From Rhodoferax sp. BLA1 (GTDB taxonomy: Bacteria; Pseudomonadota; Gammaproteobacteria; Burkholderiales; Burkholderiaceae_C): a stretch of DNA of 64,000 bases. Below, piece after piece: positions 4,854 to 40,287 of the stretch. The notes under the pieces are model-generated. The model ran no database searches, was not told where the DNA came from, and worked only from the letters and a program-made list of their open reading frames with translations. Each line of letters begins with the position of its first letter. Position 1 is the first letter of the stretch. The position numbers and the translations under genes are program-made. The stretch is from assembly GCF_013416775.1 (NCBI RefSeq), contig NZ_SZVI01000013.1, positions 1-64,000 on the forward strand. Direction: 5' to 3'.

Positions 4854-5935
4854 GGTTCACGGTACAGCGCACTGTCCAAATAGGTGCTACGCAGGCGGCG
4901 ACCAGCCACCAGGAGCACGGCGCTCAAAGGCAAGGCGATCAACACACCCACAAATCCCAGCAAATGGCCAAAGGCCAGCAGGGCAAAAATCACCGCCAGC
5001 GGGTGCAGGCCAATGCGCTCACCCACCAGGCGCGGCGTCAGCACAAAACTCTCGACCAGCTGGCCCAGCCCGTAGACCACCGCCACCATCACCAAGGCGC
5101 TGATGTGCCCGGTCTGCGTTGAAAATTCCAGAAAACCCGCCAGCAGCGCCATCACCAGCCCCAGGCCAAAACCCACATAGGGAATCGCCACCGCCAGGCC
5201 GGTAAACACCCCAATCGGCAGCGCCAGGTCCAGCCCGAACAAGGCCAAGCCCACGCTGTAATACACCGCCAGCACCAGCATCACCACCAGCTGGCCGCGC
5301 AGGTATTGGCCCATCACACTGTCGGCCTCGTCGGTGAAGCTGTTGACCACGGCGCGCAGGCGCGGCGGCACCAGGTTCAGCAGCAGCGCCATAAAACGGC
5401 GCCACTCCATCAGCAGGTAAAACAGCACCACCGGGATCAGCACCGCATTGCCCAGCACGGAGAGCGCCACACTGCCGCCAAATTTGGCCGACTCCAGCAA
5501 GCGTCCCAGGCTGTCTTCAAAATTGGCGTTGAGGTGCTCGGTGGCAAAAGCCTTGAGCCCGGCCACGTCCAGCGACACATGCAGGCCAAACTGCGACAAA
5601 AAGGGCTGCAAAAATTCATTAAAACGGTCCAGCAATGGCGGCACCTGCTCACGCAGCAGCGGCAACTGCTTCACCAGAATCGGTACCACCAGCAGCATCA
5701 AGGCCAACAGCAGCAGCAAAAACACCAGCTCCACCACCACCACCGCCAGCAGACGCGGAATACGGCCACGGCCCAGGTCGTCGAGCCAGTCCACCACCGG
5801 TGTCAGCGCATAAGCCAGAATGGCCGCCACCACAAAGGGGGTCAGCACCGGGGCCAACAGCCAAAGCAACAGCACCAGGCCGACCAAAAGTGCCAGCCAG
5901 GCCGCAGCCCGTTTTTGAGTGGAGGTGAATTGCAT
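4850..5935 (-). CDS. AI-2E family transporter (PerM/YdiK-like permease)
   Basis: 361-residue polytopic inner-membrane protein with about eight predicted helices: two N-terminal hydrophobic pairs, a soluble helical insert at about residues 90-140, then a C-terminal set of helices ending in GVLIALPLSAVLLV. This is the PF01594 architecture. Members export autoinducer-2, Na+/H+ or unknown solutes, so the substrate is not assignable. The ATG at 5935 is used rather than an upstream TTG. It overlaps hda by 4 bases and is divergent from purM. Confidence 0.88.
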   Translation of the reverse strand: MQFTSTQKRAAAWLALLVGLVLLLWLLAPVLTPFVVAAILAYALTPVVDWLDDLGRGRIPRLLAVVVVELVFLLLLLALMLLVVPILVKQLPLLREQVPPLLDRFNEFLQPFLSQFGLHVSLDVAGLKAFATEHLNANFEDSLGRLLESAKFGGSVALSVLGNAVLIPVVLFYLLMEWRRFMALLLNLVPPRLRAVVNSFTDEADSVMGQYLRGQLVVMLVLAVYYSVGLALFGLDLALPIGVFTGLAVAIPYVGFGLGLVMALLAGFLEFSTQTGHISALVMVAVVYGLGQLVESFVLTPRLVGERIGLHPLAVIFALLAFGHLLGFVGVLIALPLSAVLLVAGRRLRSTYLDSALYREP

Positions 5936-6067
5936 CAATTGCCCGAACAACCGGCTGGGGGCCGTACCCTTAAAATCAGCGCAAATTCTATCGGCCTGGC
6001 TCTCATGAACCAGCCGACCCGCAAGTTAACCGATCCACCCCGGCATTTGGCCTGATTGAACCCACCC

Positions 6068-7114
6068 ATGAGCACAACCAACACCCCCACCACCGCCCTC
6101 TCCTACAAAGACGCAGGCGTCGACATTGACGCTGGCGATGCACTGGTGGAGCGCATCAAACCTCTCGCCAAAAAAACCATGCGCGAAGGGGTACTGGCCG
6201 GCATTGGCGGTTTTGGCGCCCTGTTCGAGGTGCCCAAACGTTACAAGGAGCCGGTGCTGGTGAGCGGCACCGACGGTGTCGGCACCAAGCTCAAACTGGC
6301 GTTTGAGTGGCAAATGCACGACACCGTTGGCATTGACCTGGTGGCCATGAGTGTCAACGACGTGCTGGTGCAAGGCGCGGAGCCGCTGTTTTTTCTGGAC
6401 TACTTTGCCTGCGGCAAGCTCGATGTGGACACCGCCGCAGCGGTGGTCGGTGGCATTGCCAAAGGCTGTGAGTTGTCCGGCTGCGCGCTGATTGGTGGCG
6501 AAACCGCTGAAATGCCCGGCATGTACCCCGCTGGTGAATACGATTTGGCTGGTTTTGCCGTCGGCGCGGTCGAAAAATCCAAAATTTTGACCGGCGCCGA
6601 TGTGAAACCGGGCGACGTGGTGCTGGGCCTGGCGTCCAGCGGTGTGCATTCCAACGGCTTTAGCCTGGTGCGCAAATGCATCGAGCGCGCAGGTGATTCC
6701 GCCCCGGCCACGCTGGACGGCAAACCCTTCAAACAAGCGCTGATGGAGCCCACCCGCCTGTACGTCAAAAACGTGCTGGCCGCCCTGGCCGCCCACCCGA
6801 TCAAGGCCCTGGCCCATATCACCGGTGGCGGTCTGCTGGAAAACATCCCGCGCGTGTTGCCCGAAGGCACCGCCGCGCACCTGAAAAAAGGCAGCTGGCC
6901 ACAAACCGAACTGTTCGCCTGGTTGCAAGCCACCGCAGGCATCGACGACATCGAGATGAACCGCACCTTCAACAACGGCATCGGTATGGTGGTGGTGATC
7001 AACGCCGCCAACGCCGCCGCCTGCGCGGCGACCCTGCGTGCGGCCGGTGAAACGGTGTACGAGATTGGCGTGATTGCAGCCAAAGGCGATGGCGCTGCGG
7101 TGGTGGTGGGCTGA
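6068..7114 (+). CDS. purM: Phosphoribosylformylglycinamidine cyclo-ligase (AIR synthetase)
   Basis: Makes aminoimidazole ribonucleotide from FGAM with ATP, the fifth step of purine synthesis. 348 residues. The N-terminal half carries [14 protein letters not shown] and [11 protein letters not shown], the nucleotide-binding loops of the PurM family; the C-terminal half has [16 protein letters not shown]. Start taken at ATG 6068; a TTG twelve bases upstream is in frame but less likely. Transcribed divergently from the AI-2E permease/hda unit with a 132-base spacer. Confidence 0.97.
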
Positions 7115-38533: not shown

Positions 38534-38596
38534 TGGGGCGCCATTATCGGTGGCGGCGCCGGGGCGGGATTTGGGGGTGAATGCTGTTGTAAGCCT

Positions 38597-38642
38597 ATTT
38601 GGCGCCTAGCCCTCTTGATACGAGGGCTCGCAGCTACGGAAT
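38597..38642 (+). repeat. Interspersed repeat copy 8
   Basis: ATTTGGCGCCTAGCCCTC, spacer TTGATAC, GAGGGCTCGCAGCTACGGA, forward sense, directly upstream of the hrpA start region. Confidence 0.85.
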
Positions 38643-38991
38643 ATGTAGTGATGTGCTGTGATGGAGATGGTTGGCCGAGGATGCATCCTGCCGGTAACCG
38701 TGGCCGTCAAAAGACGAGATATGACCACCACCCCAACCCATTCCAAACGCAAGCGACTTTTGCGCTCAAGCAATCAGGACACCAACAATGACACAAACCA
38801 AGAGGAAACGGGTACCCGGTTTGCAGCGGGAGCGGCCATTCGGAACATCTGCCAAATTTACTCATCGATTCAGAACATCACCCCAGAACTCACCTGTTGT
38901 CCCACGTCTGGTCTGCCAGAATATCGAGATACGATTGATGCGGTGAAAAAGCAGCAAAAACAAAGCTGCAAGCCGCTTTCAGGAGGATTTG

Positions 38992-39042
38992 ATGGCCAAC
39001 ATATGGAGCAATTTCCAACTTATAGAGCGGATGTTGCTCTGA
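38992..39042 (+). CDS. 16-codon mini-ORF with perfect Shine-Dalgarno
   Basis: AGGAGG at 38981-38986 precedes ATG 38992 by 5 bases; the frame reads MANIWSNFQLIERMLL and stops at 39042, 29 bases before the TIR start. It could be a leader peptide or the end of an older cassette gene. Too short for family assignment. Confidence 0.35.
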   Translation: MANIWSNFQLIERMLL

Positions 39043-39049
39043 ACATTAC

Positions 39050-39056
39050 GTTAGGC
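39050..39056 (+). other. Integron core-like heptamer (GTTRRRY) upstream of the TIR gene
   Basis: GTTAGGC, 15 bases before the TIR start codon: the place and spacing expected of the recombination core at the 5' end of an integron gene cassette. A possible partner half (GGCCAAC at 38994-39000) and imperfect inner arms (AGCAATTTCC at 39007, GGATGTTGCT at 39029) lie upstream, but their spacing is not canonical. Confidence 0.5.
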
Positions 39057-39071
39057 CTCCACGTCGAATTT

Positions 39072-39911
39072 ATGAGTACAGAGCACATCCCTTACGGTCC
39101 CGTCTACATCACGGATGGACCTCACTCGGGTCGCATTGGCAACTACGATGACAATGACACAGAATTCTCGGACGACATTGACTTTGATTTGGTTGGAGAC
39201 GACGATGACATTGAAGGGCGGCGTGTAGCAATAGTCTATTTTGGAGACTTTTTCCTGGCCAATGGGTACTACATCATTCCAGATGAGTACGTTAGAGAAG
39301 TCACTACGGCCGATCTCTTGAAGCGGCGCGAAGAGCTCCATAACCTTATAGGACGGTTTGCTGCAGCGAAAGGCTCGCCAAAAGTAGGAGCTAAAAGAAA
39401 GATCGAATTGCTTACCGAATTACATTTCGTGGAAGGAGTGCTTGTGGATCGAATGATTCATGCTCGCTATAGCAACAAAGGGCAAGGCGCCAAGATTTTC
39501 ATCTCGCACTCATCAAAAGACAAACAGTTTGCAACATGGCTGGGCACAGACTTAAAAACGTCTGGGCACACGCCGTGGTTCGACGAGTGGGACATCTGCG
39601 TTGGTGAATCTATTCCAGAGAAAATATCTGACGGCCTATCTAGTGCAGACTTCATCATTGTGGTGCTGTCAACAAATTCGATTAAATCTAAGTGGATGGA
39701 GCGGGAGTGGCATGCGAAGTATTGGTCTGAAATTGAAAAAAACCGAACCATTGTTTTGCCGCTGCTCATTGAAGACTGCACTATCCCTGAACTCCTAAAA
39801 ACAAAGAAGTACGCAGACTTTCGTTCAAACTACAACGATGGCTTAGAGGATGTTCTGTTTGCTGTGGACCGTTTGTTGGAGACGCGTCCAACTGATGAAG
39901 AGCAAAGCTAA
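39072..39911 (+). CDS. TIR-domain protein, candidate defence effector in a lone cassette
   Basis: 279 residues. The N-terminal domain (about 1-85) is acidic and beta-rich (YGPVYITDGPHSGRIGNYDD, later VAIVYFGDFFLANGYYIIP), not recognised, and is followed by a helical linker. From about 140 is a TIR domain: KIFISHSSKDKQFATWLGTD, then WFDEWDICVGESIPEKI, DFIIVVLSTNSIKSKWMERE, RTIVLPLLIEDCTIP. The acidic W-F-D-E-W / S-x-W-x-x-x-E pattern fits NAD-cleaving bacterial TIRs. GC content is clearly lower than the flanks. An attC-like site follows the stop. Longer in-frame starts (38658, 38721) exist; 39072 is preferred because the recognisable domain and the cassette core both sit there. Confidence 0.82.
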   Translation: MSTEHIPYGPVYITDGPHSGRIGNYDDNDTEFSDDIDFDLVGDDDDIEGRRVAIVYFGDFFLANGYYIIPDEYVREVTTADLLKRREELHNLIGRFAAAKGSPKVGAKRKIELLTELHFVEGVLVDRMIHARYSNKGQGAKIFISHSSKDKQFATWLGTDLKTSGHTPWFDEWDICVGESIPEKISDGLSSADFIIVVLSTNSIKSKWMEREWHAKYWSEIEKNRTIVLPLLIEDCTIPELLKTKKYADFRSNYNDGLEDVLFAVDRLLETRPTDEEQS

Positions 39912-39934
39912 ACAATTTCGCGTAGCGCACCAGC

Positions 39935-40052
39935 CGCCAAATTGGTCGTTCAACGCGGACACCGCTACAGCCCACGCCTTCGGCATTCTCTTGGCCTGTA
40001 GCTGTACCCTTCGCGCTTCATGCTACGGCGCCGGTTAACTATGGCGTTGAAC
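39935..40052 (+). other. attC-like integron recombination site
   Basis: Starts 23 bases after the TIR stop. R'' is degenerate (CGCCAAA, 39935-39941), then TTGGTC and L'' GTTCAACGCGGAC (39948-39960). The centre holds inverted arms GCTACAG (39964) and CTGTAGC (39996). L' CCGGTTAACT (40031-40040) follows, then R' GTTGAAC (40046-40052). L'' pairs with L' with one extra base, as in true attC sites, and the CCGGTTAACT-n3-GCGTTGAAC end is characteristic. No integrase gene is in the window. Confidence 0.65.
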
Positions 40053-40287
40053 TTCTGCAGACTGAAAATTTGGTTGTCGGCTAACCACCACGACGTTGTT
40101 GTCTTAGCCATTCGTCTTCAGCTTGAGAATGATTACCACTGACTGGCCGGTCACCAAGGTGTCAGACCGTTGGGTTGGGTGGCCAACTCGGCGATGTGCC
40201 GATAGCTACCAAAGCCTTCACACACGTGCTGCAAAATAGGGTGGTGTTGCCCCCTATTGACTGCTGCCCTCTTTGCCAACCTACCCC
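40053..40287. other. Intergenic region between the attC-like site and argA
   Basis: 235 bases with no gene; with the attC-like site the gene-free stretch after the TIR gene is 376 bases. Contains inverted arms GGCTAA (40079) and TTAGCC (40104). The right half returns to high GC and probably holds the argA promoter, which I cannot place exactly. Confidence 0.5.

Follow-up and report, generated by a model that had tools for sequence, protein, structure and literature searches.

A 64,000-nucleotide stretch of the Rhodoferax sp. BLA1 genome (contig NZ_SZVI01000013.1, positions 1 to 64,000; referred to here as the window) carries, between hrpA and argA, a gene for a TIR-domain protein that had been predicted from the letters of the DNA to form a lone integron cassette. 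Our analysis points to a minimal integron without an integrase, in which an attI site is followed by one cassette whose gene fuses a predicted KOW-like barrel to a TIR domain, a reading that we consider likely. Comparisons with other genomes, made at the level of sequence, show the attI, the cassette boundaries, the attC, the lack of a nearby integrase, the absence of the unit from the sister-genome intervals examined, and similar units at many loci. A broader proposal, which we put forward tentatively as a possibility, is that attI and cassette without integrase make up a dispersed, non-autonomous mobile unit across the family. Each copy would found a new minimal integron equipped with an attI and a translation leader of its own, could draw on an integrase supplied in trans, and could carry defence genes such as the KOW-like/TIR fusion.

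attI and cassette between hrpA and argA

The DNA 5' of the GTTAGGC core that precedes the gene (Table 1) is alignable with attI sites beside complete integron integrase (intI) genes, so the cassette stands in an attI. The DNA ending at GTTAGGC has counterparts in many genomes of the genus: a 458-base query gave some match in 30 of the 89, its own included, and attI matches in other genomes had E-values of 5.1e-23 to 3.0e-24. A complete intI directly adjoins the matching site at one locus (L185; 81.8% over 99 bases); the window attI is likewise alignable with that of the complete integrons L186-L188, and alignments with the attI of complete integrons extend over about 110 bases. These alignments identify the upstream GTTAGGC as an attI core, and its interpretation as the end of another attC was dropped after the match to attI. 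The prediction of a lone cassette between hrpA and argA holds for a one-gene cassette with an attC; its upstream GTTAGGC is the attI core, and the locus is hence an integrase-less attI-cassette unit.

An attC is present and no integrase lies nearby, in keeping with the predicted single-gene cassette. Between hrpA and attI the best match to an intI remnant had an E-value of 0.042, which is noise, and the genome as a whole has no intI above the cut-off of the family, 265 bits, the best candidate reaching 101 bits. An intI next to attI, by which a complete integron is recognised, was not found at the window.

The attC was located with a covariance model trained on 15 attC sites that lie close to integron integrases of the genus; standard pairs occupy 91.8% of its pair cells. 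Run with filters off, this model confirmed the proposed site as the top match in the 64 kb (24.5 bits, E 0.00067, where E-values of the attC and attI models are rough); the runner-up was an 18-base hairpin with 15.8 bits and E 0.094. The site gains weight because it lies directly 3' of the stop codon and matches the 5' core of the cassette. R'' begins 24 bases 3' of the stop codon and forms five Watson-Crick pairs and one GT pair of seven with the 5' core GTTAGGC, versus three Watson-Crick pairs and one GT pair with the following GTTGAAC, and this better pairing is what a cassette beginning with TTAGGC should show. The L'' sequence GTTCAACGCGGAC and the L' sequence CCGGTTAAC plus its preceding G form ten pairs, all Watson-Crick, in a pairing picked by eye after the attC anatomy model that leaves the L'' bases C, G and A unpaired. 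Of the anatomy proposed earlier, the places of L' and R' stood; GTTCAAC at 39948 turned out to be part of L'', the true R'' being GCCAAAT. Read from its two boundaries, the cassette is real.

Relatives of this attC were found in two other genomes (G010, 79%; G025, 77%) and elsewhere in its own genome (74%). One locus of its own genome (G000:C5:187000-205000, L243) has an intI 5' remnant (residues 1-49), a cassette-like open reading frame (ORF) and an attC resembling that of the window in letters. Two other attC-like sites of this genome have damaged cores, C11:46519-46586 (L202, 32.2 bits) and C8:84602-84668 (L203, 30.5 bits), and adjoin a PLD-like ORF and a DUF4145 ORF. A short repeat 3' of the window attC has a second copy at about 7324 on the minus strand (80.6% identity, E 0.001). 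Since this repeat also occurs elsewhere, a right-hand end of a unit after attC was dropped as a candidate, and we claim neither unit ends nor a target duplication.

The gene begins with ATG 39072, 15 bases past GTTAGGC. Its open frame extends further 5' (417 codons) because an ATG inside the attI, the second one there (39003), shares its frame with the cassette ORF, and the database copy of the protein (P0001) has 396 residues. We take 39072 as the start shared by the family, since the closest relatives, of about 276-289 residues, have their first residue at this position. In-frame ATGs inside attI, giving a leader fused with the cassette ORF, occur in the window and at L229, L231 and L237. 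The GC content of the gene is 0.46-0.48 versus about 0.61 in hrpA, so it is indeed a lower-GC gene, and the motif positions given earlier (GTTAGGC 15 bases 5' of the start, L'', L' and GTTGAAC) proved correct when re-read. A promoter scan gave 1 match versus 1.5 expected in shuffles, and an Rfam scan of 36-44 kb gave no attC match and one RsmY match, far under its gathering score.

The flank shared with sister genome G061 stops at about 38650 and restarts at about 40183. argA was located in 86 of the 89 genus genomes, and 40 argA loci (L051-L090) were taken with more flank. The hrpA-argA interval measures 63-178 bp in 15 of these loci and 0.9-7 kb in 14, and in the remaining 11 hrpA was not seen in the DNA taken; the interval is a variable spot in sister genomes. 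Across all 40 loci there was no match to attC and none to window positions 38802-40112, so the comparison of sister intervals, suggested with the original prediction, found the unit in none of them. The TIR gene was absent from all 35 other genomes of the genus examined and, at E<=1e-30, from all 398 other genomes sampled in the order (present in 1 of 399).

Table 1. Features of the hrpA-argA interval, in window coordinates
Feature	Position	Strand	Details
hrpA leader in common with sister genomes G061 and, first 25 bases only, G004	38534..38650	.	blastn to L055 (to 38648) and L051 (to 38558)
attI leader, integrase-less form	38822..38957	+	homology to other such loci starts ~235 bases before core end; left edge approximate
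attI site	38946..39056	+	attI model 91.9 bits, E 6.2e-26; window is one of the model's 21 training rows
Short ORF in attI, 16 codons	38992..39042	+	read by eye; AGGAGG at 38981-38986 upstream
Core GTTAGGC, attI/cassette junction	39050..39056	+	recombination after G; sequence
Cassette, one gene, 996 bases	39051..40046	+	cores at either end; R'' paired with 5' core
KOW-like/TIR gene, 279 residues	39072..39911	+	stop codon 39909-39911
Predicted N-terminal KOW-like barrel, residues 1-77	39072..39302	+	
TIR domain, residues 140-272	39489..39887	+	
Glutamate 212	39705..39707	+	invariant in 38 of 38 aligned sequences
attC	39936..40052	+	R'' GCCAAAT 39936-39942, L'' GTTCAACGCGGAC 39948-39960, L' CCGGTTAAC 40031-40039, R' GTTGAAC 40046-40052; covariance model and sequence
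argA leader in common with sister genomes G061 and G004	40183..40287	+	90-91% identity to L055 and L051

Integrase-less attI sites in the genus and family

Further attI sites were sought with a sequence-only model of 21 rows. This model favours the attI lineage of the window, because 16 of its rows were chosen by similarity to it, and other integrases of the genus have attI sites beyond its reach. In the genus it found 93 sites in 46 of 89 genomes, up to 7 per genome; intI over the cut-off is present in 16 of the 89 genomes and adjoins 4 of the 93 sites, all 4 identified by hand comparison and all training rows of the model. In the family it found 97 sites, distributed over 45 of 200 genomes and 39 of 141 genera, where over-cut-off intI is present in 83 genomes and adjoins 7 of the 97 sites. 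Both totals are sums of matches per genome, and adjacency to intI was judged by hand.

For 20 sites outside the training set, an over-cut-off intI stands beside none. A 5' intI remnant of 47-117 residues is present at 5 of them, and the other 15 show no trace of intI at E<=1e-4. A co-oriented attC lies within 1.3 kb of 12 of the 20, one of them weak (E 0.062), in a sample where the contigs of L254, L255 and L257 end shortly past attI. One locus with a 5' remnant (L258) also has a distant recombinase downstream of attI (35% identity, residues 5-278). Among the first 15 loci (L225-L238 and L240), a co-oriented attC was found downstream in 10, a full intI in none and a 5' remnant in 3, with L227 too near a contig end for its intI state to be judged. 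Taken from these scans, integrase-less attI sites are scattered through the bacterial family.

Some loci hold several sites. Three attI sites in the same orientation lie within about 4 kb at L268 (G548:C1), and two, also in the same orientation, have an attC between them at L269 (G547:C12). A LexA box was rejected as a mark of the intI form, as the strict CTG-N10-CAG occurs in just 3 of 21 sites.

In a tree of 40 attI sites, from which L227 was left out because its contig ends too soon, the window attI and five others, from six genomes in total and all without intI, form a clade (support 99/93). The label "no intI" requires 4 changes on this tree versus 11.3 in shuffles, with 0 of 500 shuffles as low, a comparison that asks only whether the label clusters. 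The six members have a common leader in place of the intI start, their upstream flanks match only to about 230-235 bases before the core, and no downstream match among them was listed. A shared leader amid unrelated flanks fits spread after the loss of intI, and the clade suggests as much for these six sites. At 14 attI loci that keep an intI remnant or have a weak leader, the stretch homologous to the intI region mostly extends to 228-372 bases 5' of the core, which may mean that loss of intI leaves a cassette promoter in place; a fixed cut site within intI was ruled out, as the boundaries vary among them.

Some points weigh against the attC and others against the spread of the units. The score of 24.5 bits for the window attC is by itself not outstanding across the 4.5 Mb genome, and in a genome-wide scan in which 150 of 2361 candidates were scored, this attC is not among the sites listed. 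Its R'' is degenerate, GCCAAAT differing from GCCTAAC at two bases, and the lowest-energy DNA fold of the bottom strand differs from the textbook pairing. As to spread, the ends of a moving unit are undefined, and the intI remnants elsewhere end at varied points, some with internal deletions, which implies that intI was lost more than once.

The last point is also what would be expected had a complete integron come to the hrpA-argA interval in this lineage and lost its intI there, the other integrase-less attI sites being independent wrecks. Such loss has precedent in Xanthomonas, which has integrons with inactivated intI and, at other loci, clusters of attC sites lacking an integrase (CALINs) (PMC12444791), and in Treponema phagedenis, where intI was lost (PMC3607928); in both, as in the window unit, cassettes remain. 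Unlike in those cases, integrase-less attI sites here occupy many loci, several to a genome, and the window site belongs to a clade with an intI-lacking leader. No trace of intI was found at the window, and its attI groups, with support, with five sites of other genomes; the flanks of these sites are unlike beyond about 235 bases before the core. We therefore regard decay in place as somewhat unlikely.

The predicted KOW-like/TIR protein

The TIR domain predicted at the C-terminus was recovered as a TIR_2 match over residues 142-260 (Pfam, E 2.6e-33). In alignment A1, which joins the window protein with 37 of 120 listed homologues (321 found), the TIR glutamate is retained throughout, and it aligns with the W-x-x-x-E glutamate of BtTir and AbTir, which we take to be the catalytic residue. 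The protein has both the TIR fold and the conserved glutamate by which TIR NADases are recognised in sequence. The N-terminal part, previously described as an acidic, beta-rich and unrecognised domain, is predicted by structure modelling to be a KOW-like barrel; by sequence it has no PDB match and a single Pfam match, at E 0.16, and a structure search with the model of the whole protein returned a list filled by the TIR domain. Compared with AbTir and BtTir, which are stand-alone bacterial TIR NADases, the TIR fold and the glutamate are in common and the N-terminal domain differs.

We propose the following mechanism. An integron integrase would once have joined the cassette to attI; after loss of the integrase, the unit would have come to the hrpA-argA interval from elsewhere. 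The attI would supply a leader from which the TIR gene may be translated. Infection would be sensed by the N-terminal barrel, perhaps via the transcription or translation machinery, the usual binding partner of KOW domains. The TIR domain would then consume nicotinamide adenine dinucleotide, halting the infected cell. In this scheme we infer the NADase activity, the phage defence and the way in which the units disperse.

The protein is probably a single-gene phage-defence protein, a role that fits the TIR family. The integron part may also hold with a TIR protein that acts in host signalling or stress, or is inactive, an alternative that we consider unlikely. It draws on the lack of a defence model spanning the whole protein: PADLOC and NCBIfam matches are limited to the TIR part, and the NCBIfam models score far under their cut-offs (retron-TIR 62.5 of 600, ThcB4 27.2 of 220). 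The PADLOC candidate PDC-S66, a model of 282 positions, has its TIR part at a similar place and matches over that part alone. Pfam ThsB_TIR also stays below its cut-off (19.7 of 21.2), which the relatives P0033 and P0054 exceed. In addition, ten non-cassette loci read by eye have the gene mostly among unrelated ORFs and outside any recognised defence operon. Against a role outside defence stand the sporadic occurrence in the order, the conserved glutamate, carriage as a cassette, and published anti-phage cassettes (PMC12409362).

Relatives were sought in genome contigs, and the attC model was run on all of the best 80 loci and all 10 viral loci. As had been anticipated, cassette carriage recurs elsewhere: two full-length relatives lie in other integrons, one as the second cassette of a complete integron (L102, Lysobacteraceae) and one that follows a 5' remnant of intI and has an attC at its stop codon (L106, Xenophilus; E 0.017). 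These are the only two with a supported attC among about 22 full-length relatives in the best 80 loci, a hand count in which L124 covers only residues 1-196 and L130 residues 1-250, and the TIR gene is thus often found outside integrons. TIR-only relatives are flanked by two attC sites at L113 (Synechococcus) and lie beside intI with no attC match at L126; at L148 the attC sites are more than 700 bases from the TIR part. Homologues from plasmids and phages match over the TIR part only, none spanning 80% of the query. At L104 (Paenibacillus, 5020-6738) two TIR genes are adjacent, the second being a full-length relative.

Relation to described integron structures

With one attC match above noise in the window and no integrase, the locus falls within the definition of a single attC site lacking an integrase (SALIN; PMC12690207) and outside that of a CALIN (at least two attC, no integrase). 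An attC without integrase is what it shares with both (PMC12690207, PMC12444791); their definitions count intI and attC only, and the window unit has in addition an attI at its left junction. Delta-attI cassettes of mobile integrons (PMC12901181), in which an attI in shortened form takes the place of the attC 3' of the gene, have in common with it an unusual use of attI; the window unit has a long attI in front and an attC behind. Integrons have also been described in phages (PMC9892861), and cassettes with anti-phage activity by Darracq 2025 and Kieffer 2025, as told in PMC12409362. The window gene is likewise a single-gene defence candidate, and differs from these cassettes in its KOW-like/TIR architecture and integrase-less platform. 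A literature search over titles and abstracts, in which the term KOW was not used, found no description of dispersed integrase-less attI sites or of a KOW-TIR fusion.

Integron surveys search for intI and attC; an attI is less easily detected. Should attI-cassette units without integrase prove common and prone to spread, genomes would contain landing sites and single first-position cassettes in larger numbers than such surveys count, and defence genes could settle away from a main array. The KOW-like/TIR fusion offers a testable idea for how a one-gene TIR system may sense infection.

Two other accounts of the locus fare poorly. A plain SALIN, formed when a cassette entered a non-classical site of the genome (attG), would account for one attC without integrase, and attG insertion has been described (Loot 2024, via citing papers). 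The left side, however, is no short genomic site of the non-attI, non-attC kind; it is the attI whose long alignment with complete integrons is given above, and we rejected attG insertion at the window as very improbable. That the att-like motifs resemble integron sites by chance, as the degenerate R'' and rough E-values might allow, is scarcely credible given the attI matches in other genomes, the attC match, homologous attC sites elsewhere, and boundaries that agree on either side of the cassette.
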